From Crambe crambe (Eukaryota; Porifera; Demospongiae; Poecilosclerida; Crambeidae): a stretch of DNA of 64,000 nt. Position 1 is the stretch's first letter. Each line of letters opens with the position of its first letter. This document shows, piece after piece, positions 2,171-64,000 of this stretch. Where the stretch lies: positions 1,736,001 through 1,800,000 of the forward strand of contig OZ004587.1 in NCBI GenBank assembly GCA_963924555.1, written 5' to 3'. A model generated the notes under the pieces. The model had not been told where the DNA came from and searched no databases. It saw only the letters and a program-made list of their open reading frames with translations. The position numbers were made by a program, and so were the translations under genes.

Positions 2171-3544
2171 ATCTCTCCATCTATTCTCGTCCTACTCCAT
2201 CTATTGTCGCCCTCCCATATCGTTGCACTATATCTATTGTCGACCTCTACCCTAAAGTCATCTACAGTTTTGGAGACCATTACCGCAAAATTTGAATGCC
2301 ATCATTAACTTTCACACCAACAGTCCAGTAACTTGCACTTTATTATAATAACCTAAAAAATCGATGCCCAAACATTTATTATTAAAAAAATCCAATAAAG
2401 CAATATGAAGTATTATTAAAATTATAGAAATAATGTGTCACAAAGTGGGCAAATCATGCCTCCTTCACCAGCATCCAAACAATCAACATGCATCCATTTT
2501 GAGCAAGACAAGTGTGTACATTGTATCCAACTTTGGATCGTTGCCTGTGCTAGTGCCACAGGTGTTGCGCTACCTCCTATGGTGATACGATTGTGATCTG
2601 TGCCTTGTTACCCGAAGATCTCCCATAAACTTTCTTCGTGCCTCTCTCAGCTACTCGCTTTGGCTGCTTATGCTCAAGGGGCATCCCACTTTCATCAACA
2701 TTGTAAATACGATGTGGTTTATCGGCAAGGTCGTGTTCTTCAAGTGTTGACTCGAGCAATTTGAAGTATTTATCAATCTTATCCTGTGTGACAACATCTG
2801 CCCTAGCTTTTGATAGAGGGTCAGCAGTACGCAAAGATAACTTAGGATTACGGCTCATAAATTGAGACCACCAGCCCTCTCCATTGAATTTCTCTGTATC
2901 AACGCCTTTCTTTTCTACTGTCTTTTGAACCATTGCAAGTACCTCTTTCTTGGTTTTTCCATAACCTATGGATGCTGCTTGCTTGAGAAAAGTCACAAGC
3001 TCCTTCTCTTCTTCACTGGAAAGGTAAGGCTTGGGGCCAGATTTCTCTCCATGCGTTACTCGGCCAGTAATCGTCCCTCAGGGTTGATCTAGGCACCTGG
3101 TAACTTCTAGATGCTTCATTCAGCCCAAGGGTTCCTTCCTTAATGGCTTCTACAGCTTGTAGCATGCTTTCATCCGACCATTGCTTGAATTTTTTTGGCC
3201 TTCTACTTGTTTCAGCGACTCCCTTTCGTTTTTCCCATCCTCTCTTGGCAGCTTCTGCTCTCTATAATACGATTCATATTAATGGTGTGAAAAAAAACCG
3301 AAAAAAAACACGAATAAGAACCGAACAAAAACCAAAAGTAGAAAGAAACAATGAATGGCGACCTACCTTTCGTTTTGACATTGATTACCACACAAAAAAC
3401 AGCTATCTTGTAGGATAGAACGACAAACCATCAACACAATAAAACTCCTGGCAACGTGGCGCCACTCCGTAATCTTTTGTGGTTTGTGATACTTCCGCGC
3501 ATGAAACTGGTCGACATTGGATGACGAGAATAGATGGTGGAGAT
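2171..3544 (-). mobile_element. Decayed pogo-type DNA transposon with terminal inverted repeats
   Basis: The ends 2171-2191 and 3523-3544 are inverted repeats sharing a 15-base core (CCATCTATTCTCGTC), and they bracket a transposase relic on the minus strand. Two further core-like words lie inside the left end, at 2197-2211 and 2231-2245. They form a subterminal series of the kind transposases often bind. Pogo elements target TA, and a TA lies near each end, but the exact element ends are uncertain because the outermost bases diverge. The relic has lost most of its catalytic domain, so it cannot move on its own. Confidence 0.7.
2422..3381 (-). pseudogene. Pogo-like transposase relic (psq HTH, CENP-B-type HTH, start of DDE domain, PHD-like finger)
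   Basis: Exon 1 (3381-3367) encodes five residues from an ATG and ends at an AAAG/GTAGGT donor. A 105-base intron ends at TATAG, and exon 2 starts at 3261. Exon 2 first gives a pipsqueak-type helix-turn-helix (core around EASRSYQVPRSTLRD). The frame then slips by one base near 3080. The next frame carries a CENP-B-type HTH and the first catalytic motif, NVDESGMPL. At about 2580 the protein jumps, with a stop, to a C-terminal finger at 2580-2422 (CxxC-type spacing with WMHVDCL and ICPLC) ending at TAA. Most of the DDE domain is therefore deleted. The domain order fits pogo/Tigger-like transposases. Frameshift, stop and deletion make it a pseudogene. Confidence 0.78.
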
Positions 3545-11644: not shown

Positions 11645-13484
11645 GTGAGTAGCTATAATATTACCCACTCTTGATTATTCCAAAAATTAATGTTATTCTC
11701 AAATATTTAGGAGCAGTTATTGCAAACACTAGAGCAGTGGCTGGCACTCAACATACTTTGACCTGTACACTAGAGAACTTTGACTCCTCTAGTATTACTC
11801 TCTTGTACACATGGTCCATAGCAAGTCAAAGAATATCCACTTGTACAAGTGAACAGTGTGTAATACCTGATATACAGTTAACTTATGCCCGCACTGACTA
11901 TCGTTGTGAGGTCCGTAGACATGATGACAATACTGTGATTGCAATTTCAGATGATACCAGCCTTGAAGTCTCCAGTAAGTTATCAATAATTATTATTCAC
12001 AGCATCATAATAGTTTATTCATTTATAATGCCTATGCCCATAATCCCCTGTTAACATCCTGTACTGAACTTAACAGTGAATACGTACATAAGTACATACT
12101 ATCCCACTTGTTATTGGAGTAGGACTGAGACAGACTTGAGGCCATTATGTGACAGCATTTGAGAAAGTTTCAAATTACAGGTTTTGATATGTATATTAGT
12201 ACTGATTTAAAGAATTTCAGAATACTATTGAAATTTTGGCTTCAAGTACGTTTTGTATACGTGTAGGTTTTAAACTTTAACAGACTTATGAACTTGTACC
12301 TTCTGTCAAATACAGTCCAATAATTATTGTGCCTTCATAATTATTATCAATGTTTTGAGCCTGCCCCTGCATGTAGGCTCCCCTATTTTTTTAGTGGTTT
12401 ATGTAGTGGGATACTATAAGTACTTGAGGGTGATAGTAGCATATGCCTCCTTGAATGGCCCTTCCGGTTGAATGGCCATGATGTAAAAGAGTTGGGTGAC
12501 CAGGTCATAAGGCACAAGAATAGGCTTGACATTGTCTTTATATGGATCGTGGCCCTATCTGGATCATGTCTTTAAGATAGAGTATAAGTACACTAAGGAT
12601 AGAGGGCGGAGGGAATAATTCTGCTGTGCGGCAAGTGCTAGGAAACTGTCACCTCAACAGCTCCCTTTCTCACAAGTAGTCATAGAACTATAGCTCATTT
12701 GAACCTCCACTGTATAATTTTCGAGAGATTCATAATTTTCGCAAATATAAGCTTAATTTTCTTGTTGTAGAATCTAATTTCACAAAAGACGTCAGCAATA
12801 AATCCACACCTATCAGTCAGCATAATTTCTTTGCATGGCCTGCCTTCTTCCCCTGCCATCCATCATTTATTATTTTCTGAAGACACAGACTACTACTAAC
12901 TTAGCTTGTAGCTACTAGGTCTAGCTAGCTACGAGCTACACTGCACTGCTGACAGAGGTCCACTATGTTGAACTTGCTTGAAGAATGGAGGACCATCACA
13001 AATCTCTAGCTAAACTAGCAACTAGTATAGTTACTTTAGTTTGTGTAGCTGGTCATTCCTCTCCACAGTTGTGTGCATGCAGGACTCAACTGAACTAGCT
13101 TGCAGGCCACACCATAATTCTGCAGTTGTTTTTTTTTTGTTTTGTTTTTTATTTTATTATTTTTTTGGAAGTTTGCAATTTTCATGAGTGTACCAGTGGA
13201 CAATTCAGGACTCCAACCACTTAATCATATCATTATTAGTCACACAAGATTTTTGAGCATTTTTAAATGCTGGATGTAGTGGAATGCTAAAACTATGAAG
13301 CATTAAATTTTGGACAAAGTTATGCTTGTTGTCTAATCAACAACATTTAACAATTCAGGGCAATCCACTACTATCCACTATAATTATTGCCAGCCATACA
13401 GTTTAGTAAAAATTAATGATAATATGACAGCAAGCACAATATTTATTTTATCTTCTTTTTGTATATGTGGTGTGTTGTGTTGTG

Positions 13485-13546
<62 letters not shown>

Positions 13547-16500
13547 AGTTCCTCAAACACTACTGCAGTTTCAGGAGATAACCATCATGCAAGACCTCTA
13601 TGTTGGTTCAAATGTGACTTATAGATGTTTTTTCAGCTACTTTAATATAAGAAATATTGCAGCTGATATATCAATTTCTGGACCTGGAATTGATCAAAAC
13701 TCTGACCATGTATTTCTTGGAGAAGTTATCCAAGTCCCTGATGGTTTTGGTAATATTGAGTTTAAGCGTAGGTTGGAGTTCAACCCTATAAGTTCATCAG
13801 ATGCTGGAAGTTATCTTTGCAATGTAACAGTCACATCTGCTGAACCTAATCCTCTGGTCATGAGTAGAATGGAAGAAACAACTCAAAATATTCAAGTATT
13901 CAGTATGTAAAGATAAGTCATTCAGCTCTGTTATTATTGGCCTCATAGGAAATAGTGCACAAGCTAAGTAAGCTTTAACAAAATTTAAACATAATTTATA
14001 TGAATTTTATTTACAGTAAGTGTTATGACCTAGTATAGTTTGTGACTAGAATTATTTTTAAGGGTGCATGGAGGAATTAATGAACTTTATTTGAGGTTTC
14101 TATAATATAGGACCAATGATTGATAATTTCTCTGAATGCCTGTTTGAGTGAGCATTACTTTGATTTCATTCCTTATAACAATCTCTCTTTCATCTGCTCT
14201 GCTAATATAACTGTTAGGGGCACTCCAGTTAATCTTAACAGGGTTTATGGCTGGCGCATATCATCTAACATTTCTGCCAAGTTTTTTACTGGCAGTCAGT
14301 CAAGTACCAGAAGCAGGAATCCACACGTATAGTGGGGAAAAGCAAAAATAAACTACCAAATTACATATGCTTGTTTATATACATAAGGCTATATAAGGCC
14401 TTCAGACTTAACTTTAGTCTACAAGAGTGGGAAATTAAACTAAACCTACAGTTCTTTGCAGGGGAACTATAATATGAAGACTGAATTTAGACAGTATCGT
14501 GAGTAGATACCAAGAGGATTTAGCTACATTATTTGTGCACAATTTATCAGAGAACACGGTAGTAGCTCGTCCTTGCATAATTAACTCTTGTTCCAACTCT
14601 TTTTTGACAAGTTAACTAGTCATCCCTACATCACCTTCATTTATTTGTTTTTTCCCTTTACTTGTGTACATTATGACCCCTAATTAGCTATGTGGCAAAA
14701 TAATTATTCCAAGTGCATTCATTTTCCACTGCACTTCTTGGTTTGGAGCAAATATTGGAATTTAAGTCATGGATATCAGCTAGAGCTTTTGAAATAAAAA
14801 TGGAATTAATTTATAATTTTTTTGTCCAAGAGTTAGTTATGCTTTATAAACTAAGGGGATAGAAGTAACTAGGATTATTGGTGATGAAGTAGTAGATTGA
14901 TTTCCCCAGAGGCTTGATGTATGAATTTAAGCGCAATGCTGCCATTCTACTTAATTTAGTAGATTGGTGGGGGTGGAACGTATAGTGCAGTGTATTGATG
15001 TATCATGATCATACTAACCTTTCTGAATCTATAGGACCAACGATTAACATTTCTTTGGATCCTGTGTATCCTGTTGCTGATCATTACCTGAACATTGCTC
15101 CTTATAACTATTTCTCCTTCAACTGCTCTGTGGTCATAACCGTTTTGGACACTCCACTAAATCTTAACAGGGTTTTTAGCTGGCAGCGTACAATAGAGGG
15201 GTCCTCATCTAACATTTCTGCTGAGTTCTTTACTGGTAGTCAGTCAAGTAGCAGTGGAAGTAGTGTACTTTCAATGAATGCCACTGAAGCAGGAATCCAC
15301 ACTTACACCTGCACAATTACTCTGGATGTCTCCCCAGCCCCTGATATCATCACTAATTCTTCTTCACTACATATCACCATTACTGGTAAGGACTCCAGCT
15401 AAGAATAAGTTCAACATTTTTTATGATACCACAAAAGGGAATAGCTAGATAGCTAAGTTTGGATGATTTCTGATCATGCAGTTGAGTCAGCTAATCAATC
15501 CATGCATTAGCTATATGGAGTCAACTATGCACTGTTCAGATTTGGAACCAGGGGATCAGCTAGCTGCTTCTACTCTAACTATTTCATTCATTATTTATTA
15601 CAAGTAATTAATGGAATAAGTGGAGAATGATCATTAATTAATTATGAGAGTGATAATTTTATCCTTTAAGAGATTATGTATGACAAAATTTAATTCTTTT
15701 GGTAATGTTATTCTTTGGATGGACCCAAAAGAATTAATGCATGGAGGTTACTTCCTAGCTATTATTCATTCCATCAGCATTAGAAATAATATTACTCACC
15801 TACCTTAAGGTGACCATTAAAAACGGGTACTAATTTTAGCGAATTTTAGCGATTTATTAATAATCGTTAATATTTGTACCCGCTAATAAAACATTATATC
15901 ATAAAGTAACTATGAATATCACTATGAATATTATTACAATTAACAAACAGAATTTTCACAACATGACAAGCTTCCCACAGCTGGCTAGTGTTGCTCTCTT
16001 CTCTGTACTTTCTTCACTAGTGCAGCAGTTTATTGATCTTGCTCTTCTTCATCTGTATCAGAGTCTAAGCCTTCAAGAACTTCATCAGTTCTACATCTTC
16101 ATACTTCCCATCTTCAGGCTCCTTGTAGAGCTTGGTAACAAGCTTCTCATACTTTACCAGGGGTTTCTTGTATTGTAGCTGTCCGTGTGTATTGTGGTTC
16201 ACTAATCGCTAAATTTAGTACCCATTAAATACAATGAAATGCAAAATCGCTAAATTTTGACCCTGTTAATAATAGTCACCTTAAGGTAGCTACATGCATT
16301 TGTTATTATGTGCAGGTCCTTCCAATCCAGCTGTGCCTATAGGACTCAGTGCAAATTTCAGCACCAATGTGACTTTAGTAATGTGGCTAATCCCCTTAAT
16401 AACATACGATCCTGAAACACATGTGGTGCAGTATGGCCTATCTGTATCCAACATGAATCTCAACAGTTCTTTGGTCCTCATTAACTCAAGTATAAGAAGC

Positions 16501-16630
16501 ACCAATTTAATAGGCAGAGTGGAACTAACAGATCTCATGGTGAACACAATATATTTCTATCGTGTGATAGCCAGAAACTCTGCAGGAATTACCAGCAGTG
16601 CTATAGCTTCCTTCACTACAGGCAGTGTGG
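11575..16630 (+). CDS. Secreted or membrane Ig-Ig-Ig-FN3 protein, 3' end not found
   Basis: Five exons can be joined without breaking frame: 11575-11644, 11711-11974, 13549-13902, 15035-15385 and 16316-16630. Every junction is phase 1 with GT-AG borders, the pattern typical of shuffled extracellular domains in animals. Exon 1 encodes a signal peptide (hydrophobic core VGVMILYFSF, cleavage probably near TSAQ). Three Ig-like domains and one fibronectin III domain follow, totalling about 451 residues. N-glycosylation motifs (NISA, NATE, NVTL) fit an extracellular protein. Such proteins serve as receptors or adhesion molecules. No transmembrane or cytoplasmic exon is seen before the Gypsy element at 17.9 kb. 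The gene may continue into unread sequence, skip the element, or be truncated. Confidence 0.8.
11711..11974 (+). CDS. Exon 2: Ig-like domain 1
   Basis: 88 codons between TTTAG and A/GTAAGT, phase 1 at both ends. The Ig core is seen as LTCTLE (first Cys), YTWS (core Trp) and YRCEV (second Cys). Two extra cysteines in the STCTSEQCV loop suggest an additional disulfide. Confidence 0.78.
11975..13488 (+). other. Intron between Ig exons 1 and 2
   Basis: This is the first part of a 1.57-kb intron, non-coding throughout. It contains poly-T stretches near 13130-13160 and ends in a GT microsatellite abutting the next acceptor. No extra Ig exon could be read in it. Confidence 0.5.
13489..13544 (+). 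repeat. (GT)n microsatellite next to a 3' splice site
   Basis: About 28 uninterrupted GT pairs lead straight into TTTAG, the acceptor of Ig exon 2 at 13549. The tract sits where a polypyrimidine tract normally lies, so its length could affect splicing. Confidence 0.9.
13549..13902 (+). CDS. Exon 3: Ig-like domain 2
   Basis: 118 codons, phase 1 at both ends, donor A/GTATGT. Core features are VTYRCFFS (first Cys), a long C-D region, and SSDAGSYLCNVTV, the usual DxGxYxC motif with the second Cys. In-frame sequence upstream of 13549 only translates the GT repeat and is not coding. Confidence 0.8.
14111..14335 (+). pseudogene. Decayed duplicate of Ig exon 4
   Basis: This stretch is a copy of the exon at 15035-15385. 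Shared blocks include PYN-LSF-CS, TP-NLNRV-W, SSNISA-FFTGSQSS and the following GIHT region. It keeps an AG acceptor at 14109-14110. One extra base near 14119 shifts the frame, about 30 bases are lost after GSQSS, and a stop follows before the second cysteine. It would be skipped or would truncate the protein. Confidence 0.82.
14336..15034 (+). other. Intron sequence between pseudo-exon and Ig exon 4
   Basis: About 700 bases without a readable exon. It ends in the CTATAG acceptor at 15034. Confidence 0.45.
15035..15385 (+). CDS. Exon 4: Ig-like domain 3
   Basis: 117 codons, phase 1 at both ends, donor G/GTAAGG. It shows FSFNCSV (first Cys), FSWQR (core Trp) and ATEAGIHTYTCTI (DxGxYxC-like with second Cys). 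It is the intact sister of the decayed exon at 14111. Confidence 0.82.
15690..15736. repeat. Perfect 13-bp hairpin in intron
   Basis: TTAATTCTTTTGG at 15690-15702 and its exact reverse complement at 15724-15736 are separated by 21 bases. Confidence 0.7.
15809..16280. mobile_element. Intronic TTAA-flanked element (472 bp)
   Basis: The ends are GGTGAC-type inverted repeats. TTAA flanks both sides (15805-15808, 16281-16284), making the flanks CCTTAAGG-like. AGCGA/TCGCT words recur near both tips. A plus-strand open frame (15912-16178) runs through it, and the minus strand over 15960-16190 also reads fairly protein-like, but I recognise no domain. It sits in the intron between Ig domain 3 and the FN3 exon. 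Confidence 0.7.
16316..16630 (+). CDS. Exon 5: fibronectin type III domain
   Basis: 105 codons starting after TGTGCAG, with donor G/GTAAGT, phase 1 at both ends. The FN3 pattern is clear: NPAVP at the start, LVMWLIP (core Trp), THVVQYGLS (the YxV strand), LTDL--NTIYFYRVIARNSAG, and FTTG at the end. Confidence 0.82.
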
Positions 16631-17574
16631 GTAAGTAGCTGTAATGATTACGGGAGAACTAAAAGAGCTGATTGGATAATGGAGCAGAGATTGCCTGCTT
16701 CAGTTAGAGTTTAGTGCCAAAATCAAAAAAGTAGGCAAGCTGATTCAAGTAATTTGCAATCTGTGGGAGTGGATATTGACATGTACATAGGTAACATAGT
16801 GAGTTTTTATTTACGGTACCAAAATTTCAACCTTTATAGCTAGTGCTTGCTGTGTATCCAGCTTTGATTCAGTTCTTTGTTGTAAGGCTCACAAATACAA
16901 GCTATAGATTACTGCACATTTTTATGAATTACAGTATTAGCTAGCTTGATTACAATGAATGGGGAAAGGCATGGTCAGTTGGTCACGAATATTAAAGTCA
17001 AGATTAATGTTGGTGGGAACTGATTTTTGAACTTGTATTTAATCAGCCATTTTTTTATGTACTGTTTTTTTGTTTGTTTTTTTAATAAGATCTAGTAAAG
17101 TATGAGGCTGAGGAAGTTGTTAAAATTTCATATAAGATGTTTTTAGGAGACCAGAAAACCATAGGCTAAGTTGAGCACATCAACACCTGAATAAACATTA
17201 TTATCACTTCTAGCTATAGTTATAATTATTTGCAGTGATTAACTCAATAGCTAGGCTACATGGTGCACAAAGTGTGCCATCTAGCCCCTGGGAAATTTTG
17301 ACTTTTAGATCCCCTTAGATTGCATCTGGTACAATCTGGGTTTACGTCACCAATATGGTTTGTGCATTATGATGATGAATTTTTGGGGGAAGTTTTGTGT
17401 AGGAGTTTCTACCCTGATTGAATTCTATTGATAATTAGCTAGCTATATTAATATTATTGTAAACATCTAGAATTTACAGAAACAAATTATTTTGCAATTT
17501 CAGTTCATCTGTCCTTCTGATAAATTGCTTATTAATCATGTATTCTTGGAAAGTTAACAAGTTATTACAACTTT
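16631..17574 (+). other. Downstream of FN3 exon, no further exon found
   Basis: I searched for a phase-1 acceptor followed by a transmembrane or FN3/Ig reading frame and found none. One acceptor-like TTTGCAG near 17236 opens about 20 codons without domain character and then stops. Confidence 0.4.
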
Positions 17575-22620: not shown

Positions 22621-22719
22621 GTGCCACTGTTCAGTGGCCCTTGGGCAACTAATCTGATATGAACCTTGTGTCCATGCTTAACTATCAATAATTAGCTATG
22701 CTATATGCAGTCAATGTAC

Positions 22720-22998
22720 CTTTCTTAGGGCAGTACTTTTCCTGTATTTGCTTTGCTAATCCTGACTCATCAACAAGAGGATCATTTAGGACTGTGATTA
22801 CAAATTCCCAGGATACTGGAACATTTGTATTCTTACCAAACCAATAGTTCAAGGTTTCTATCATGCGTCTGGAAGTGGAAGGATGATCACATTCAAATGT
22901 TTTGAGTTTACTTCCTTCAATGCCCAACTGGATGCCTATTTCAAACCATTTGGTCTGCACTTTAGCTAGTTCCTTTAGCAACATCTTTTCATCAATAT
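22720..22998 (-). CDS. Death-domain exon
   Basis: 93 codons between a TTTTCATAG acceptor (22999-23000) and an AAAG/GTACAT donor, phase 1 at both ends. The sequence has the Death-fold pattern: KWFEIGIQLGIEGSKLKTFE, a basic-polar helix ending in NYWF, then SWEFVITVLNDP and a last helix GLAKQIQEKY. Death domains pair with each other in apoptosis and innate immune signalling, usually in the cytoplasm. Exons before it (higher coordinates) are not identified. The next exon is probably 20611-20289, about 2.1 kb away, across the second Gypsy element. Confidence 0.78.
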
Positions 22999-23213
22999 CT
23001 ATGAAAACATATGAGTTGAATTCACTTAAAAGCACTTATTAGCTGATCAATCATGTTTTTAGCAATTAATTATTTAAGCAATTAATTATGAGGTAGTAAA
23101 TATGAGTAAATACACCATGAACTAAATGCAGGTAAGCAAGAATTACTGCATACCCCAGTAGTGTCTAATTATCCCTGTTATCCAAATTTTAACACACAAC
23201 ATGAAATTATGGC
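22999..23213 (-). other. Upstream intron of Death-domain gene
   Basis: No exon could be read; the stretch is short and AT-rich. Confidence 0.4.
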
Positions 23214-52360: not shown

Positions 52361-53189
52361 GGTGTCTGTGCTGTATGTAGAAAGGTTTATTAGTATAGAG
52401 GCAAATGTATTTTCTATTGATGACATTTGCTGCAGTAGTTGCTGACTATTCCCAAGGACATGGCAATTGCTTTAGGATCGAGATCTGATAGGCACATGCC
52501 ACTCACTGCCACAGACAAGAAAGTGTCCAGGACCCTACCTTGGACAAACTGAAGACGTCTGTTAATTAAGGTTGGTATGCATGCTTCTGATGTGATCCAC
52601 TATAATTATAATTATGGTGCTCTTTATCTGGAAAATAATTATCCTTTTTTCCCCTTAGCTAATATTTCTTCCCCACTAAAGACAGTGAAGAAAGGGAGTT
52701 AGATCCCCGATCGATGCCATGGATTGATGCTCAGTTGGAGAGATATGACTCTATCCAATGACCTCCTGTTTCTGAATGATGCCACCCCTGCAGATCTCAC
52801 ATGTAGTACAAAGGGTGGACTCCATAATTATACATCTTTTTCCTGGTCCATCCATGCAAGTGTGTAATGACAATAATACCTGCTATTGAATCCCCTCCCC
52901 TTTAATAGGAAAAGCCTTTTATATAGTGGCCCTGTCCCACTCATGTCCAAGTTTGCCATCATAATCCTCCATGTGTCTGTACTGTAGGTGGTGCAGCTGT
53001 GAAGAAGGCCACTGAGACATCAGTGAAAGCAACTCAACAAGTCTTTGCCAATGTAACTTACTAAGATCAAGGTATATACGTATGTGTACAAACTTATTTC
53101 CAGCTGTTTCACTTGTGCTGGTGTATAGTCCAGAGGGGACATCCCTCTTCAAATGTATTGGTGCATCCAGGTGGTCAATTGGTCATATG

Positions 53190-53490
53190 CGTACACACTA
53201 GTAGAGTATCTGTAAATAACTGCTGGGATACTTCACATATCCCAGGAGATACTACACATACTCTGTGGCATATACTTTGCCCATTCCAGGATACTCCTTG
53301 GATACTACTGGGATACTCCCCATATATATATACCCACTGGCAGAGTATCTATGGATACCTGGGATAGTTTGCCCATCCCAGTGGGATATTACACATACGT
53401 ACACTGCAGCACATCCTCATGTACCCACTGGTAGAGTGCCAGGGACCATCCCAGGATACTACTGGGATACTACACACAGTACTGCAGTAT
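53190..53490. repeat. GGGATACT-rich minisatellite, copy 2
   Basis: Nearly the same as 59200-59490, and more distantly related to 51700-51960. It lies in the intron after the first talin relic exon. Confidence 0.75.
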
Positions 53491-53509
53491 ATCCCTAGCC
53501 TCGTCCCCA

Positions 53510-53530
53510 GGCTCTATTGAAAATAGAGCC
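53510..53530. repeat. Perfect 9-bp hairpin
   Basis: GGCTCTATT and AATAGAGCC are separated by three bases, right after CTAGCCTCGTCCCCA. The same hairpin occurs in copy B near 59502-59522, and the CTAGCCTCGTCCCCAGGC word also occurs near 45147. Confidence 0.75.
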
Positions 53531-55599
53531 TGATATCCACGTTTGTACATGCGTGTAGTATACAGGCAATAACCTGAAAGTTTACTGAGCGAGATTCCTT
53601 TCTCCTTTTTATTGTTTTTGTCCAGTTTTCCATACCATTTGCTACTCAGTACTTAGGTATGCTCCAAAAGACTATCTTTTGACCAAGTATCTATGGATAC
53701 CTGGGACACTGCCCCTCCTAGGATAACATTGATTCTACACCTTACATAGTAGGTTACATCATCATCTCTAAAGTTACCTCATCAGATTGTCTAATTGCAT
53801 CGTTTATAAGTACAATTATTAACTGTTGGTCGCTGGTTAATTTTCTTGCTGCTCAGTTGTTAATTTAAGTTCCCCTTACTTATATAATTATCTGCTCGTT
53901 TAACTTCCTAGCCTTTTGTTAGAGTTTGTCCTCGAGTATGAGTGAAATTAGCTAGCTGCCCTTTGTACCAAATTTTCCAATTTTTTTTCTCTCTAATTAA
54001 TCAAAAGTGATCAAAGATAAATGTTAAGTGACGTAATAAAATAAGTCAAATGGCGTGAAATAAATCAAACTAGCAATGACTAACAATACACTAACACCCT
54101 TTGCTAAATTTACTCACTTGAAATGCCTATTTCTGCATGTTACTTCCCACCCAAAATTAAATTATTACTTATCATGCAATCTCACTGTTCATTCTGGAGA
54201 GCCCTGTAATAAAAGTACTTTTTTTTGATGTCTTGACAGTCAGAACCTGTTGAACCCATCTTCAAGTGTTGGCACCTGCCACAGAATTGATAGATTTGTG
54301 CACTCCATTTAAATGTACGTAGTTTGATGTGGTAAAGGGTCTTCACTCATCTCTTACTTTAGCGGTTTATAATATAATGCACCTCCATCAAATGTATACA
54401 TCTTTGAATACATTTGACTGAGGCCAACTGTTATCATTATTATCCCTCTCCTCTGTACTTGAAGCATGCAGATGAAGACAAATTCTTGAAACAGCTAAGA
54501 ATATTGCTATTGCTAGCTCTGTTGTGAAGGGCAACCCAAATCAGAGGATGGACTTGAGTAGAAACTTCATAGCACTACTTTTGATACAAGAATTGTTTAT
54601 TTGTTTGTTTTGATAGTGAAGAATGAGTTGTTATTACTAGTTGGTTGGCAGTTGTGACTATGTAAACTTATTATGCTCACAGTATCAAGCATTCTGCAAA
54701 GTTATCAATTGGTGTGATCAGGTATTGTTTTGTGTGTGCAGGCTAAGCTGGTTACTAGTGCTATGAGCAATCTGTGAAGCTGCCAATGGAGTGGTGTGAG
54801 GTCAGGCTCAGGAGGAGAAACTGATAGTGGCTATCAAGGCTGTGGCTTCTCCTCTGTTGCTCAGCTGCTCAATGCCTGTCAGGTGAAGGCTGATGGAACA
54901 ACAGGAGATTACAGGTACATACTCACAACATAATCTTGTACAGTACATGTACGTATGAGTGGTAAGAGGAATATACATGTTTGATGACCCCTTACCAATC
55001 CATAGCCTTTATTTAATATTACAGTAGGACCTCACCCCTTGGGATTTTTGTTGTTTATAACTCGTATTTTTTGAAGCTAATATTTGAATGAGGTTGCTGA
55101 AAAAAGTGATGTAAATTGTGGGTGTGGTTGTGGGTGTGTGCAATGAAATCACTGTGTATTTTAACAATGTGTTTTTTCTGATGCAGCTGTGAAGGCCACT
55201 GAGACATTCGTGAAAACCTCTACCAATGGAACTAACGAAGATGCTACTATGATCAAGGTATGCATACATTAGATAAACTTCTTAAAATTAGAACTACTGA
55301 CTCTAATAGTCCACCCCCAAACTTCCTTAATCAGTGGGGACATGCATACTCATTAAATTCATTCTGTTGTCTCGATGATCCTTTACCAATCAATGAGGGC
55401 TCAGACTATGATGGAGAAGGTGACGTAACCCTCAATTCAAACATATCTTCCCATTTTCATGGTTCAGGTGTGATGGAGGATTTCTGAAAGGAGCTGGAGG
55501 TTCAGTGAAGGATGGTTAAAATGCAGTGAGAGCTGGAACTGGCCAAGGAGCAGTTGTACAAGATCCAAAAGGAGAAAACCAAGCACCAAGCCCACACTT

Positions 55600-56286
55600 A
55601 TCCCCTCAACATGATATCTAAAACTAATACATTTCTCGTGGAACTGCTAACGATAATATTGTAGTGATGCTTTTTTTTATGTTTATGTTGTTTGAGAAAG
55701 TATTGATGATTTCCTCATTGCAATCGTTAGCTGATAACTGTCTATAATTATGTTGTCTCTCAAAGAAATGAAAATGAAACCTTCCAAATATCATGAATGT
55801 CAATAATTTTGCCAGCACTGCTCCCATAGCAGCAACCACAGTCCACTCCATTTACCTGAAATAGTACAGGAATGAACAAAGGATGCTTCTCTAGTCTCTA
55901 CTGCTTTAATCTTCCACTGTGGTATTTATATCTCTATGACCAAGTCTTTCTAATTACATTGTGATTAAGATGTTCCTCAATCAACACCCAATTATGACAA
56001 AAGTCTAATGACAAGATTTATCAACCAAAATTATCACTTTGATAGTGCAGCACTGTCCAACAGTTAGTGCCAAAACTTCCAATTCACCACAATTGATAAG
56101 AAAATTTATTATTAAAATAATTTCAACATTCACAAGTAAAATATTTAGAATGAGTGGGAGGTACAAAGTAAACTAAAGGAAAGAGGTGAAAAAAATGAAA
56201 TGGCATAAACAAAAACAGTTGCATATATGCAAATAACATAAAACTATGAAAGGTGAAGTAAAATTAGAATAGAATATCATGGAACA
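55600..56286. other. Intergenic spacer between convergent talin relic and ankyrin gene, copy A
   Basis: No gene seen. It aligns with 61960-62400 and 62770-63049 of copy B; copy B carries extra sequence. Confidence 0.5.
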
Positions 56287-57540
56287 TTATAAAAATAAAG
56301 TTATAGTACGCAAGTAATCCACCACCTCACTGTGACCCTCTTCTAGGGCCAGCTGGAGTGGTGTCTGGTTGGAATTGTTCTTGATGTTCGGGGGGCAACG
56401 GACCTGTTCAACAAGATGTTTCACTATTGCAAGATGACCTTCACTTGCTGCCCAATGGAGTGGAGTGTATCCATTGATCTCTTGACAAATGCAGTCAGTA
56501 TCTTTGTTTCGGGTTACGTATTTAACGATGGAGAGATGTCCAAACTGAGCTGCCAGGTGCAGAGGTGTGAATTTATGCTCATCCAGAATATTGGGGTCAC
56601 AGCCATGCTTCTCAATGAGGTTCTTGACGAGGTGGAGGTGACCCTCTTGTGAAGCAATATGCAGTGGAGATCTTCCATACTCACCTGGAAGATGAGGACT
56701 GCACTGCATTACAGTGATGAAGTACTCCACCACATCACTGTGACCTTTAAGAGCTGCATTATGCATTGGAGTACTGTTATAGTTATTTCTTGTAGTTAGT
56801 TTACATTTCCTATCTGCTGTGAGATATTTGACTGTTTCCAAGTGACCGAACTGTGCAGCGAAATGTAGGGGGGTGTCTTGATTCGTGTCTGTAGAAGCTG
56901 GGTCACACCCACACTCCACTATCAAGTACTTGACAGTGGACAGGTGACCCTCCTGAGCAGCATCAAAGAGAGGTCCTCTACCGAAACCATTAAGAAGGTT
57001 GGGGTCACATCCACATTCCTCAATGAGGAACTTGATGATATTGGTGTGACCCTTCAGAGCTGCCTCGTGGATGGGAGGATTCTTGAACTTGTTGGGGAAT
57101 GTTAAAATGTCATTCATTGACATGTGTTGCAGCATCGACTGTATCAAATGTTTGATGATTTCTAAACTGCCACCACAACAGGCCCTGTGTAGAGGTAAAT
57201 AACCATATTCATCCTTGTCAAGGGGATTGGCTTTATGCTTGTCCATTAAGTACTGGACGATGGAGAGATGTCCTCCTTCAGCTGCACAGTGTAAAGGAGT
57301 AGTTCCGTGCCAGCCTGGAAGTGAAGGGTTGCAGTGTAGATCCTCAGTAAGGTACTTGATCACCTCCAGCTTTCCAAATCTTGCTGCTGTATGTAGAGTT
57401 GTGTCATTATCACTGTTCTTTGTTAAAGGATCGAGTCCCTTTGCTATGAGACGTTTCACTTCTTCCAGGTTTCCTTCTTTGGCAGCATCGTGTAGGTCTG
57501 AGTTGTGCTCTGTTGTGGTTTCTACTGAGACTGTCTTTTC
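56287..57540 (-). CDS. Ankyrin-repeat protein, copy A (last exon)
   Basis: A 417-codon exon begins after a CATGACAG acceptor (57541-57542) and ends with a stop at 56287. It encodes twelve ankyrin repeats of about 33-34 residues in a row (pattern TPLHxAAxxGHLxxVKYL). The first is DLHDAAKEGNLEEVKRLI. The fourth has a 6-residue longer loop (MLQHMSMNDILTFPNKFKNP). The last is degenerate. Ankyrin repeats are protein-binding scaffolds. No other domain is present on this exon, and the first in-frame ATG lies only in the third repeat, so an upstream exon must supply the start. It is not identified. The gene faces the talin relic tail to tail. Confidence 0.85.
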   Translation of the reverse strand, partial: EKTVSVETTTEHNSDLHDAAKEGNLEEVKRLIAKGLDPLTKNSDNDTTLHTAARFGKLEVIKYLTEDLHCNPSLPGWHGTTPLHCAAEGGHLSIVQYLMDKHKANPLDKDEYGYLPLHRACCGGSLEIIKHLIQSMLQHMSMNDILTFPNKFKNPPIHEAALKGHTNIIKFLIEECGCDPNLLNGFGRGPLFDAAQEGHLSTVKYLIVECGCDPASTDTNQDTPLHFAAQFGHLETVKYLTADRKCKLTTRNNYNSTPMHNAALKGHSDVVEYFITVMQCSPHLPGEYGRSPLHIASQEGHLHLVKNLIEKHGCDPNILDEHKFTPLHLAAQFGHLSIVKYVTRNKDTDCICQEINGYTPLHWAASEGHLAIVKHLVEQVRCPPNIKNNSNQTPLQLALEEGHSEVVDYLRTITLFL

Positions 57541-58579
57541 CTGTCATGTGAGAAGAATTCAGTGTGAACTTCAATTTCATTATGGCTTAATATCTCATAC
57601 ATGGGCGAGATTGAAGGGCCACGGCAAGTCATATTGCCCCACCGTCCATGGAAACAATGTTTAATCTCCATGGAGACAAGAATGCATGGCCACTAACATC
57701 AAGGTAAAGTTACTTTACTGTAGCTAGCCTAGTCTATACTCACCTTAGCTAGCTATAGCAGGATATAAAACAAAACAGGGTACCATGGGTTTATGGATAA
57801 TAACCCTCGCCCTAGGGCTGCGCATTGCACCCATGTTCTATTACATAGAAATCTAGAAGTTTTTGAATTCAACATCAAGTCACAATGAAGAAATTTTATT
57901 CACCTGAATATGATCTGGAAGTTTATGGGTTGTGTCTCTATTTACAAGATTGAGTTACATGAAGTACAACATTGTTTACAAGTAACTGTAATTAGAGCTT
58001 GTAATGATTGTATGTAGCTAGTGCTACACACTTCTCCTGTGCATTAGACACAGAGATATAGCTGAAGTCAATGCTCATTATTAATACACATACGTATGCA
58101 GTAGTTATAAACATTATAATAGGAAATTAATTTGTGCTTTTTAAGTGGTCACAGGTAACACAAAATTTTTGTTGGGTTTGAGGATATAGAATAGGCATGA
58201 CTGCTGGTCATATCACAATCTGATTGGTCAATTACCATGTGATATGAGCATGACTATAGTTGTATTAACATACTATTATTGCTAGGAGATTTTCATAGAT
58301 GAATTTCTAAAACAAAATGTTTGCTCTCTCCACCTAGTACCTGCTAGTTGAGAAAATTAAAAAACTGAATAACTAAATAAGCCACCATTCATAAATGTTG
58401 GTAGCACAGCTATTTGCAGGGGTAAGTAAGTCGGCTCTAGCTTGAGATGGTGCTTTATCGTTATCTACGTAATACCCTACCAAAACCCACTGCTTCTAAG
58501 GAGACTCAACCATACCCTATTCATTTGTTTGGGTGTTGATATTTGAAGCTCTTCAGAGGAAAATAAAATTAATTTAATC
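57541..58579. other. Spacer between duplication copies, 5' side of ankyrin gene A
   Basis: It should contain the first exon and promoter of ankyrin gene A (minus strand), but no phase-0 exon ending in a good donor could be fixed. A minus-strand open stretch starting at an ATG near 57671 runs into the ankyrin exon in the wrong frame. Confidence 0.35.
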
Positions 58580-58987
58580 ATCGCACTCTCTGATTATGGT
58601 ACTCTTTATCTGGAAAATAATTACGAATATCACTTTTTTTTCCCCCTTAGTTAATATTTCTTCCCTTCTAAAGGCAGTGAAGAAAGGGAGTTAGATCCCC
58701 ATGGATTGATGCCATGGAGTGATGCTCAGTTGGAGAGATATGACTCGATCCAATGACCTCCTGTTTCTGCACTCTCCACCCCTGCAGATCTCACATGTAG
58801 TACAAAGGTATAAAAGATATGTAAATGTGGACTCCATAATTATACATCTTTTTCCTGGTCCATCCATGCAAGTGTGTAATGGCAATAATACCTGCTATTG
58901 AATCCCCTCCCCTTTAATAGGAAAAGCCTTTTATATAGTGGCCCTGTCCCACTCATGTCCAAGTTTGCCATCATAATCCTCCATGTG

Positions 58988-61958
58988 TCTGTACTGTAGG
59001 TGGTGCAGCTGTGAAGAAGGCCACTGAGACATCAGTGAAAGCAACTCAACAAGTCTTTGCCAATGTAACTTACTAAGATCAAGGTATATACGTATGTGTA
59101 CAACTTATTTCCAGCTGTTTAACTTGTGCTGGTGTATAGTCCAGAGGGGACATCCCTCTTCAAATGTATTGGTGCATCCAGGTGGCCAATTGGTCTTATA
59201 CTTACACACTAGTAGAGTATCTGTGGATAACTGCTGGGATACTTCGCATATCCCAGGATATACTACGCATACTCTGTGGCATATACTTTGCCCATTCCAG
59301 GATACTCCTTGGATACTCCCCATATATATACCCACTGGCAGAGTATCTATGGACCTGGGATAGTTTGCCCATCCCAGTGGGATACTACACATACGTACAT
59401 TGCAGCAGATCCTCATGTACCCACTGGTAGAGTACCAGGGACCATCCCAGGATACTACTGGGATACTACACACACTGCAGTATATCCCTAGCCTCGTCCC
59501 CTGGCTCTATTTAAGATAGAGCCTGATATCCATAGTTTGTACAGGCAATAACCTGAAAGTTTACTGAGTGAGATTCCTTTCTCCTTTTCTTTATTGTTCT
59601 TGTCCAGTTTTCCCATACCATTTGCTACTCAGTACTTAGGTATGCTCCAAAAGACTGTCTTTAGGCTGGTTTTATTGTTTGGTGCTCAGATTATTTTTTC
59701 AATGAATAAACATCCATTTACGGAGAGTGTATGAGGAATATATGGAAGCCTCAGAATTCCGAGGCTAACATGAACAACTGATGCCAGGCTCTCTTTTAGA
59801 CAGAGTGCCTGGGGCTGAGGCCAATCCTCATATGCCTACCAACCAAGTATTTATGGATACCTAGTACACTGCCAATCCCAGTAACCTGTCTGATTCAATA
59901 CCTTTCACATTATGCTTCAAAATTGAAATCTGTCCAAAGATTTTAGTAGGTTACATCATCATCTCTAAAGTTATCTCATCAGATTGTTCAGTTGCATCGT
60001 TTATAAACACAATTATTAACTGTTGGTCGCTGGTTAATTTTCTTGCTGCTCAGTTGTTACTTTAAGTTCCCCCTACTTATATAGTTATCTACTCCTTATT
60101 TTTTAACTTCCTAGCCTTTTGTTGGAGTTTGTCCTCGAGTATGAGTGAAATTAGCTAGCACCCATCCTTTTCTCCTTTGAAGAGAGCCTCTTTTGGAGTA
60201 CTTTAGATCGTTCTTTGTTGAGAGCTTATTGAAGTTACCACTGTATTCCTATTTGTGGTCAGGGATTTCCCCACAACTATGGGCTGGGAGGAAAACTAGA
60301 AACTAGGAAACAGAGGACTTTTCAATCTTGTTGTAGTTGCCACATAAAAAATCTTTCTAGTAGTAGTATACTGTACCAAATTTTCCAATTTTTTTTTCTC
60401 TCTAATTAATCAAAAGTGATCAAAGATAAATGTTAAGTGACGTAATAAAATAAGTCAAATGGCGTGAAATAAATCAAACTAGCAATGACTAACAATACAC
60501 TAACACCCCTTGCTAAATTTACTCACTTGAAAATGCCTATTTCTGCATGTTACTTCCCACCCAAAATTAAATTATTACTTATCATACAATCTCACTGTTC
60601 ATTCTGGAGAGCCCTGTAATAAAAGTACTTTTTTTTTGATGTCTTGACAGTCAGAACCTGTTGAACCCATCTTCAAGTGTTGGCACCTGCCACAGAATTG
60701 ATAGATTTGTGCACTCCATTTAAATGTATGTAGTTTGATGTGGTAAAGGGTCTTCACTCATCTCTTACTTTAGCTGTTTAGCTGTAATATAATAGAATGC
60801 ACCTCCATCAAATGTATGCATCTTTGACTGTTACCATTATTTTCTCTCTCCTCTGTACTTGAAGCATGCAGATGAAGACAAACAGCTAAGAATATTGCTA
60901 GTGCTCTGGTGTGAAGGGCAACCCAAATCAGAAAATGGACTCATCTCAGCTGTGAGTAGAAAATTCATGGCACTACTTTGATACAAAAATTGTTAATTTG
61001 TTTGTTGTGATAGTGAAGAATGAGTTGTTATTACTAGTTGGTTGGCAGTTGTGACTATGTAAACATATTATGCTCACGTACAGTATCAAGCATTCTGCAA
61101 AGTTATTAATTGGTGTGATTAGGTATTGTTTTGTGTGCAGGCTAAGCTGGTTGCTAGTGCTACGAGCAATCTGTGGAGCTGCCAATGGAGTGGTGCGAGG
61201 TCAGGCTCAGGAGGAGAAACTGATAGTGGCTATATCAAGGCTGTGGCTTCTCCTCTGTTGCTCAGCTGCTCAATGCCTATCAGGTGAAGGCTGACGGAAC
61301 AACAGGAGATTACAGGTTCATACTGACAACACAATCTTGTACAGTACATGTACGTATGACTGGTAAGAGGAATATACATGTTTGATGACCCCTTACCAAT
61401 CCATAGCCTTTATTTAATATTACAGTAGGACCTCACCCCTTGGGATTTTTGTTGTTTATAACTCGTATTTTTGAAGCTAATATTTTAATGAGGTTGCTAA
61501 AAAAAGTGATGTAAATTGTGGGTGTGTGCAATGAAATCACACAATGTATTTTTTCTGGTGCAGCTGTGAAGGCCACTGAGACATTAGTGAAAACCTCTAC
61601 CAATGGAACTAACAAAGATGCTACTATGATCAAGGTATGCACACATTAAATAAACTTCTTAAAATTAGAACTACTGACTCTAATAGTCCACCCCCAAACT
61701 TCCTTAATCAGTGGGGACATGCATACTCATTAAATTCATTCTGTTGTCTCGATGACCCTTTACCAATCAATGAGGTCTCGGACTATGATGGAGAAGGTGA
61801 CGTAACTCTTGATTCTTCCCATTTCCATGGTTCAGGTGAAGGGGTGTGTGATGGAGGATTTGCTGGAGGTGCAGGAAAGGATAGCTAAAATGCAGCGAGA
61901 GCTGGAACTGGCCAAGGAGCAGTTGTACAACATCCAAAAGGAGAGAGTCAAGCACTAA
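58988..61958 (+). pseudogene. Talin C-terminal (I/LWEQ) relic, copy B, with an intact last exon
   Basis: Pieces are: 58999-59084 (as in copy A, with the same stop), 60868-60960 (VKGNPNQ relic, damaged), 61141-61315 (AKLVASATSNL, GQAQEEKLIVAI and QLLNAYQVKADGTTGDY, each in a different frame), 61564-61634 (VKATETLVKTSTNGT) and 61836-61958. The last two splice in frame. The final exon is fully open for 40 codons (MEDLLEVQERIAKMQRELEL...) and ends in TAA, matching the charged C-terminal helix of talin. Frame breaks in the 61141 exon show the copy as a whole is not functional, though a short tail could still be expressed. Confidence 0.72.
59200..59490. repeat. GGGATACT-rich minisatellite, copy 3
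   Basis: Copy B counterpart of 53190-53490, with a few units lost. Confidence 0.75.
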
Positions 61959-63049
61959 GCCACACTCATCCCCTCGACATTATAGATTATCTTTGTATTA
62001 TTAATACATTTCTTTGTGGAACTGCTAGTAATAATTGTAGTGATGCTTTTTTGATGTTTGTTTTGTTTTGTTTGAGAAAGTATTGATGATTTCCTTATTG
62101 CAATCGTTAGCTGATAACTGTCTATAATTATTTTGTTGTCTCTCAAAGAAATGAAAATGAAACCTTCCAAATACCACCAAAGGGTCTACTCTGCTGTCAA
62201 TTCTCTGGCCAGCACTGCTCCCATAGCTGCAACCACAGTCCACTCCATTTACCCAAGAATGAACAATGGATGCTTCTCTAATCTCTACTGCTTTAATCTT
62301 CCACTGTGGTATTTATATCTCTATGATAAAGTCTTTCTAATTACATTGTGATTAAGATGTTCCTCAATCAACACCCAATTATGATAATTATGACAAAATT
62401 TGTCACCAAATTAAAAATAATTATTGGAACCAGGTTTTAATTCCGCTTCAACATCATCTCCAAAACTATAAGGTATTTAATTAGAGGGACATCCTTAACA
62501 TTAAAATGATATTGGTATACAGAGGGACTGCAGTATGAACACAGCAGAGATTAGAGGGACATATACTCATTGGGATTAAGTTATTTTCACAGTGGAGATC
62601 AGAGACATCCTCTTACATTAATTAATTTGCTGAATATCACAATAGTACAATTTCTTGTAAAGATTATTATTATATGCCACTTGAATGGATTATATTTTGA
62701 GTTTAGATTAGAAGGACTTCCTCATTAGGATATCAAGACAATTTCTGAGTAAGGTGATAATTATGATAGTCTTTGATAATGAAGTGCTGTCCAACAGTTA
62801 GTGCCAAAACTTTCAATTAACCACCATTGATAAGAAAATTAATTATTAAAATATTTTAAATATTCACAAGCAAAATATTTAGAATGAGTGGGAGGTACAA
62901 AGTAAACTAAAGGAAAGGAGTGAAAAATGAAATGGCATAAATAAAAACAGTTGCATATATACAAATAAAATAAAACTGTGAAAGGTGAAGTAAAATTAGA
63001 ATAGAACATCATGGAACATTATAAAGATAAAGAGTAGGAAAGTTATTGT
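61959..63049. other. Spacer between convergent talin relic and ankyrin gene, copy B
   Basis: No gene seen. The insertion at about 62400-62760, absent from copy A, contains the word TTAGAGGGACAT twice plus related ones. It loosely resembles the TTAGAGAGGACT of the satellite. Confidence 0.45.
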
Positions 63050-64000
63050 TTATAAAGTACGCAAGTAATCCACCACCTCACTGTGACCCTCTTCTTGGGC
63101 CAGCTGGAGTGGTGTCTGGTTGGAATTGTTCTTGATGTTTGGGGGGCAACGGGCCTGTTCAACGAGATGTTGCACTATTGCGAGATGATTGTTATATGCT
63201 GCTAAATGGAGCGGAGTGTTCTTCTGTTTGTTTTGATACGTAACGATACAATCTTTGTTTTTAGTCAGATATTGCACGACAGAGAGATGTCCAAACTGAG
63301 CTGCCAGGTGCAGAGGTGTGGATTTATCATCATCCAGAACATTGGGGTCACAGCCATGCTTCTCAATGAGGTTCTTGACAAGGTGGAGGTGACCCTTATT
63401 AGAAGCAATATGCAGTGGAGATCTTCCATTGAACCCTGGAAGATGAGGACTGCACTGCATTACAGTGATGAAGTACTCCACCACATCACTGTGACCATGA
63501 AGAGCTGCTAAATGCATTGGAGTATTGTTATAGTTATTTCTTGTAGTTGGTTTACATTTCCTATCTGCTGTGAGATATTTGACTGTTTCCAAGTGACCAT
63601 CCATTACAGCGAGATGTAGGGGGGTCTCTTGATTTGTGTCTGTAGAAGCTGGGTCACACCCACACTCCACTATCAAGTACTTGACAGTGGACAGGTGACC
63701 CTCCTGAGCAGCCATAAAGAGAGGTCCTCTACCATCCACACCATCAGGAAGGTTGGGGTCACATCCACATTCCTCAATGAGGAACTTGATGATATTGGTG
63801 TGACCCTCCAGAGCTGCAACGTGGATGGGAGGATTCTTGAACTTGTTGGGGAATGTTAAAATGTCATTTATTGACATGTGTTGCAGCATGGACTGTATCA
63901 AATGTTTGACGATTTCTAAACTACCACCTACACAGGCTATGTGTAGAGGTAAAGAACCATTTTCATTTTGGTCAAGGGGGTTGGCTTTATGCTTATCCAT
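63050..64000 (-). CDS. Ankyrin-repeat protein, copy B (partial, continues beyond window)
   Basis: 316 codons of the same protein as copy A are inside the window, open to the edge, with the stop at 63050. It holds at least nine ankyrin repeats. The long loop in the repeat after PLHIACVGG and the order of repeats match copy A. The C-terminus is five residues shorter. About 50 residues differ from copy A. They cluster in hairpin tips and the variable first-helix positions, while the second helices are nearly unchanged. The upstream part lies outside the window. Confidence 0.85.
   Translation of the reverse strand: MDKHKANPLDQNENGSLPLHIACVGGSLEIVKHLIQSMLQHMSINDILTFPNKFKNPPIHVAALEGHTNIIKFLIEECGCDPNLPDGVDGRGPLFMAAQEGHLSTVKYLIVECGCDPASTDTNQETPLHLAVMDGHLETVKYLTADRKCKPTTRNNYNNTPMHLAALHGHSDVVEYFITVMQCSPHLPGFNGRSPLHIASNKGHLHLVKNLIEKHGCDPNVLDDDKSTPLHLAAQFGHLSVVQYLTKNKDCIVTYQNKQKNTPLHLAAYNNHLAIVQHLVEQARCPPNIKNNSNQTPLQLAQEEGHSEVVDYLRTL

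Follow-up and report, generated by a model that had tools for sequence, protein, structure and literature searches.

Copy A and copy B, two neighbouring ankyrin-repeat exons in a 64,000-nucleotide stretch of the genome of the sponge Crambe crambe (GCA_963924555.1, contig OZ004587.1, positions 1,736,001 to 1,800,000; the window), probably encode the ligand-binding ends of a large arrayed family of intracellular Death-type recognition receptors whose binding surface is under diversifying selection. In this family we observe a constant 12-repeat scaffold, an excess of change at repeat positions 10, 13 and 14 and, less strongly, at positions 2, 3 and 5, recombination, and signalling exons nearby. 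The two copies and their surroundings are located in the window as follows.

56287..57543, minus strand: copy A, a complete ankyrin exon of 418 codons with 12 repeats, supported by its open frame, Pfam, a structure model and a splice acceptor.
63050..64000, minus strand: copy B, the 3' part of a 415-codon ankyrin exon, open to the window edge and continuing past it (complete exon at locus L009).
57544..58590, minus strand: flank upstream of copy A, a putative intron with an approximate end, closest to the flank of locus L013 (11 mismatches in 1063 aligned bases).
52611..58068, unstranded: tandem-repeat unit holding exon A and its 3' flank, which matches 58593-64859 of the extended sequence.
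58593..64000, unstranded: second tandem-repeat unit, holding exon B and running about 860 bases beyond the window.

Tandem ankyrin repeats place the exons among ankyrin repeat proteins. Copy A matches Pfam Ank_2 (E value 1.5e-85), its structure model contains 12 repeats at a predicted local distance difference test score (pLDDT) of 90.3, and its splice acceptor at 57543/57544 lies in a context common to copy B. A preliminary description had noted about 50 differences in some 315 residues, concentrated at binding-surface positions. We count 52 in the 311 codons that can be compared with the part of B inside the window, find every quoted residue example in the alignment, and obtain 62 amino-acid differences in 395 aligned codons for the complete exons. 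Thirty-four of these 62 fall at repeat positions 2, 3, 5, 10, 13 and 14, which comprise 68 of the 395 sites (hypergeometric P 4e-14) and were assigned to the surface from the repeat register, DSSP on the model and published statements. Differing sites amount to 18 of 36 at positions 10/13/14 and 16 of 32 at 2/3/5, compared with 7 of 116 in the second helix (positions 17-26). Over the entire exon the synonymous divergence (dS) is 0.153 and the nonsynonymous divergence (dN) 0.099; the proportions of nonsynonymous and synonymous differences (pN/pS) are 0.349/0.212 at 10/13/14, 0.271/0.271 at 2/3/5 and 0.048/0.133 elsewhere. The initial observation was right and even understated; it holds for a family.

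A genome search with copy B returned 166 matches, from which we took 94 separate exons (at least 94 among the matches listed, or 93 should the neighbouring matches at C10:587830-589483 represent a single interrupted exon). These exons are arranged in arrays on contigs C10 (0.15-1.25, 1.36-2.2 and 4.1-4.5 Mb) and C9, with a few elsewhere, and an internal stop is listed for 4 of the 94. Seventy exons were retrieved and 60 kept for selection counts; L017 and L018 were dropped for extra repeats, L032 for a stop, L047, L062 and L070 because they were mis-trimmed or had a changed start or end, and L026, L048, L056 and L078 by judgement as more divergent. The 60 form four groups: G1 (the A/B clade) with 8 exons, G2 with 18, G3 with 14 and G4 with 20. 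Within a group, any two exons are distinct at 16-46 of the 67-69 surface positions. Ankyrin matches also occur in very long single open frames at C13:2747118-2768237 (8104 codons, with matches recurring at ~6.7 kb spacing), C6:8868085-8879982 (4443 codons) and C16:1975817-1985365 (3502 codons). In a large protein collection, none of the best 120 of 6064 matches to the ankyrin query was closer than 43% identity, from which we draw no conclusion because scoring covered just 7986 candidates; matches of 99-100% were obtained there for the Roc-like and TRADD-N-like exons described below. Two stretches in the viral_contigs set fitted a pattern for relatives of copy A, and by tblastn neither is a relative.

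Among the 60 exons, pooled pN is 0.148, 0.259, 0.240, 0.328, 0.292 and 0.289 at positions 2, 3, 5, 10, 13 and 14, respectively, and at most 0.083 at every other repeat position, with a similar profile in all four groups, none of which shows an even spread of change over the two helices. Pooled pN/pS at 10/13/14 is 1.59 (1.30-2.02 by bootstraps that handle codons as independent, sequence pairs not being so), compared with 0.32 in the helix-1 core, 0.32 in helix 2 and 0.42 in the loop. The values for G1 to G4 are 1.54, 1.50, 1.75 and 1.61 (lower bounds 1.11, 0.97, 1.15 and 1.02), and dN at these positions is 2.9-4.3 times dS of the remaining codons. At 2/3/5 pN/pS is 0.68, 1.09, 1.77 and 1.17 in the four groups; the loop of G1 reaches 0.82. 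A FUBAR-like grid of our own implementation identified 27 of 396, 60 of 394, 26 of 395 and 40 of 396 sites with P(beta>alpha)>0.9 in G1 to G4, and 109 of these 153 sites are at the six positions named above. Multi-nucleotide changes were set aside as the cause of the high ratios by counting one-nucleotide codon differences alone: between nearest pairs, nonsynonymous and synonymous (N/S) changes at 10/13/14 number 50/2, 99/15, 87/11 and 133/15 in G1 to G4, exceeding neutral expectation by factors of 8.6, 2.1, 2.6 and 2.9, while the factors at 2/3/5 are 1.1, 1.6, 5.0 and 1.2. The evidence for selection is therefore strong at the inner helix but less so at the hairpin. In four arrays the changes target the contact surface of the ankyrin repeats, as had been proposed for the pair.

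Recombination is evident from the decay of linkage. Mean r2 (squared correlation) between framework sites of G1 to G4 declines from 0.52, 0.23, 0.16 and 0.16 within 30 bp to 0.09, 0.06, 0.07 and 0.06 at 800-1200 bp, reaching its floor beyond ~30-100 bp in G2-G4 and beyond 400 bp in G1, and in no group did any of 500 permutations give an equally extreme result. The trees are star-like, with terminal branches summing to 4-7 times the internal sum. In G1 the flanks are reassorted: L009 and L012 are 1.6% different downstream and 0.40 different upstream. Linkage decay and flank reassortment together argue that exchange between copies also feeds the differences. Six pairs have downstream flanks that differ by 1.2-2.1%; their repeats 8-12 carry framework synonymous differences at 5/87 to 15/86 sites and nonsynonymous differences at 10/13/14 at 8/36 to 16/36, and the framework of these repeats in L009-L012 has 2 nonsynonymous differences in 294. 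Because exons exceed such closely matched flanks in divergence even at framework synonymous sites, exchange probably supplied part of the exon differences. The downstream flank is less diverged than the exon in 61%, 13%, 33% and 60% of sampled pairs (G1 to G4), a contrast that is not general because many flanks are simply unrelated. In most difference-rich windows a third copy is closer than the partner to one member, identity being rare, which suggests mosaics.

Exchange also bears on the history of the two copies: the preliminary inference was right in kind, but its account of a duplicated pair that then diverged is not supported. The two tandem-repeat units are related piecewise, at 88-95% identity and with gaps. 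Upstream, the flank of A differs by 1.0% from that of L013, a locus at a distance of 287 kb. Downstream, the flank of A resembles that of B (4.1-7.7%) and is unrelated to that of L013, and only ~0.5 kb of related stretch joins the upstream flanks of A and B. This combination rules out A as a simple copy of B, and by its flanks copy A is evidently a recombinant. Between the ankyrin exons, plus-strand fragments at 54832-55600 and 61233-61960 belong to the duplicated unit and are out of frame in part; they probably resemble the C-terminal region of a talin/I-LWEQ-type protein.

It is close to an even call whether copy A is a dying or orphaned exon, a product of recombination that lacks signalling exons and whose differences from B would be meaningless for binding. 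Between A and B we found no relative of 15 signalling exons, and the reading frame of A ends in an altered tail. Pseudogene status of both copies had been named as a possible objection, and neither frame contains a stop codon; for A, where ~2 stops would be expected without constraint, a stop-free frame has a chance probability P(0) of 0.11-0.13, so that its intactness is weak evidence of function. Against decay stand the intact frame and acceptor context and the framework pN/pS between A and B, which is in the usual range. Copy A could be either an orphan or an alternative terminal exon; the doubt touches A alone and leaves the receptor reading of the family unaffected.

The receptor assignment draws on exons upstream of the ankyrin exons. 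L081 on C9 carries on one strand, in order, a 2A-like exon (GDVESNPGP), a Death-like exon (Pfam Death 0.018, 15.6 bits), a 268-codon exon, an acidic linker exon and the ankyrin exon. On C10, L082 holds a Death-like exon (Pfam Death 2.9e-4, 21.3 bits, just below the cut-off of 22.6), a related 280-codon exon and a related linker, all upstream of the L020 ankyrin exon, and in both loci linker donors and ankyrin acceptors agree in phase 0. We call the 268- and 280-codon exons TRADD-N-like, as PF13820 (TRADD-N) matches 16 of 29 relatives at E values up to 0.1 (best 0.001). Such an exon lies upstream on the same strand within 12 kb of 70 of the 94 ankyrin exons (36/37, 23/25, 7/17, 4/4 and, in the A/B clade, 0/11, by subset), counts that rest on 86 of 138 matches to the 280-codon exon and in which one upstream exon may serve two ankyrin exons. 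The model of the domain has a b-a-b-b-a-b unit at 135-221 with moderate confidence (pLDDT 68); Foldseek returned ferredoxin-fold matches at E values above 0.001, with no TRADD chain in the best 50 matches listed, and a PDB sequence search with the alignment gave weak unrelated matches alone (best 0.058). No NACHT or NB-ARC match was found in the scanned exons of three incomplete genes, a sub-cut-off nSTAND3 match to a Roc exon apart.

Upstream of B, exons of another type are found on the same strand: 2A-like, Death-like, 564-codon, Roc, COR-like, second Roc-like, second Death-like and Cul7/CPH. The Roc exon (L060:5-778; Pfam Roc 6.5e-11, 42.9 bits, cut-off 27) and the Cul7/CPH exon (Pfam 1.1e-17) are clear matches. 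The first Death-like exon has no Pfam match and is related to that of L082 at 8e-9, the second is weakly related to the first (0.04), and the COR-like and degenerate second Roc-like exons, without Pfam match, are labelled by eye. The 564-codon exon is weakly related to the TRADD-N-like exons; a by-eye reading of part of it as a pseudokinase was dropped, having no Pfam support. The second Roc-like exon recurs upstream within 15 kb of 6 of 11 A/B-clade exons at five loci, A sharing that of B, and CPH exons precede B, L011 and L015 (two pieces in L015). Synteny at these five loci suggests that the ROCO exons belong with the ankyrin exon of B. The 2A-like motifs GDVETNPGP (L060:4811-5209, minus strand) and GDVESNPGP (L081:2632-2865, minus strand) precede Death-like exons in two different clades. 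A further Death-like exon in the window (22685-23035, minus strand; Pfam Death 0.0031, below cut-off) is 70% identical to the first one upstream of B. Additional clusters related to the second Roc-like exon of B occur on C8 (0.6-1.03 Mb, ~50% identity) and C11 (1.6-3.8 Mb, mostly 22-25%), the latter also holding Death-like exons related to those of B.

The Death-like, TRADD-N-like and Roc exons fit a recognition or immune family, as the preliminary description had supposed. Each member would bind its own ligand through the concave ankyrin face; binding would release the Death/TRADD-N-like or Death/ROCO module, which would then recruit partners and trigger a defence or cell-death response. New surfaces would be supplied by duplication and exchange and retained by selection. 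A bolder and doubtful extension is that the arrays form a germline binder library, renewed by short-stretch exchange between paralogous terminal exons and by selection on six contact positions per repeat, and that an extra terminal exon such as copy A splices in place of B onto one ROCO-Death module, giving one signalling gene two surfaces.

Several observations weigh against the receptor reading. Pooled pN/pS at 2/3/5 is 1.02 (0.79-1.36) and falls below 1 in the A/B clade, so that the expectation of dN/dS above 1 at the variable sites was borne out, in 60 of the 94 exons, at 10/13/14 and not at 2/3/5, where pN is high; even at 10/13/14 the lower bound for G2 is below 1. The site test takes one tree per group despite recombination, and 14 of its positive sites lie in helix 2 of G2, for which we offer no explanation. 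The PF13820 scores of the TRADD-N-like relatives are below cut-off, and a genome search with PF13820 returned none, its controls being likewise silent. The A/B clade lacks an upstream TRADD-N-like exon among the matches used, and for 5 of its 11 members a Roc-like exon is missing within 15 kb. None of the donor patterns tried gave an in-phase junction between the CPH exon of B and the ankyrin exon; therefore, either an exon is absent from the model or the link is wrong.

If the ligand were conspecific, the family would serve self/non-self recognition between individuals or cells. The repertoire-like divergence of surface positions between any two exons of a group would suit this, and fungal systems of like logic act in incompatibility (PMC4986451). 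We judge ~90 loci to be many for a self-recognition locus, consider this alternative rather unlikely and think microbe sensing likelier. Still less probable is relaxed constraint with gene conversion, in which exposed positions drift and conversion between old copies makes them seem fast. Clear recombination, star-like trees, the excess of exon over matched-flank divergence at framework synonymous sites and the ratio near 1 at 2/3/5 are in line with it; however, drift is unable to raise pN/pS above 1, as is seen at 10/13/14, where the single-nucleotide N/S counts and the excess of dN over dS of other codons also speak against it. Hypermutation or codon replacement directed by the mutational machinery to the variable codons is highly improbable. 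In its favour, two- to three-base codon differences are common at 10/13/14 between nearest copies (85/282 in G1), and pS by the Nei-Gojobori method (NG86) is raised there. Against it, codons that keep their amino acid show synonymous differences at 10/13/14 of 0.013, 0.047, 0.030 and 0.053 between nearest pairs (G1 to G4); the core, helix 2 and loop give 0.019-0.066, and G4 alone exceeds all three. Tip codons are higher in G1 (0.140) and G2 (0.089), which this comparison does not account for, and no strong base signature was seen at the variable codons.

Published parallels support each half of the receptor reading, Amphimedon the architecture and Podospora the ankyrin selection. In the sponge Amphimedon, Kaur et al. 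2021 (PMC8195603) describe Death-like plus TRADD-N (NCOA6 clade) proteins whose most frequent C-termini include ankyrins, and propose that the ankyrins recognise invaders. L081 and L082 share this order of Death-like, TRADD-N-like and ankyrin parts, and the family shares the large lineage-specific expansion; Crambe crambe adds a site-resolved case for surface selection, inter-copy recombination and a ROCO-linked subclade, with a sub-threshold TRADD-N identity. For the Podospora anserina NOD-like receptor (NLR) Pa_3_8560, Dyrka et al. 2014 (PMC4986451) report five positively selected ankyrin positions in inner helices and hairpin, and exchange among repeats and family members, as we find here. 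The fungal proteins differ in having NACHT or NB-ARC, and their variation concerns repeats, both inside an allele and among alleles. Among the open-access papers listed, none reported selection focused on the surface of Death-ankyrin receptors in animals.

Designed ankyrin repeat proteins (DARPins) are varied at positions 2, 3, 5, 13 and 14, and position 10 is not known to be randomised in them. The Crambe crambe family is alike at these five positions, here natural and arrayed, and unlike in that position 10 is the most changed. DARPin binding uses the randomised concave-surface positions (PMC8229355). DAPK1 and other ROCO proteins resemble the neighbourhood of B in combining Roc, Death and ankyrin modules; B differs from them in module order, the CPH/Cul7 exon and the second Roc-like exon. 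2A-like sequences are linked to sea-urchin NLRs, and the GDVExNPGP exons upstream of the Death-like exons in L060 and L081 are putative by motif. Their closest known counterparts are 2A-like signal sequences (Roulston et al. 2016, PMC4981915).

Elsewhere in the window, an open frame at 2577-3077 (minus strand) presumably resembles a pogo/Tigger-type transposase, and exon-like frames at 11659-16638 (plus strand) are assumed to resemble receptor immunoglobulin and fibronectin type III domains.

How so many specificities are maintained in animals that lack adaptive immunity is an open question, which this family addresses with a testable case: ~90 ankyrin exons whose contact positions change alike in four arrays, on a varied surface defined beforehand, in a scaffold like that of designed ankyrin binders and with neighbouring signalling modules of known types. 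It would bring to animals a mode described in fungal NLR ankyrins and would give evidence of selection for receptors hitherto proposed from domain architecture.

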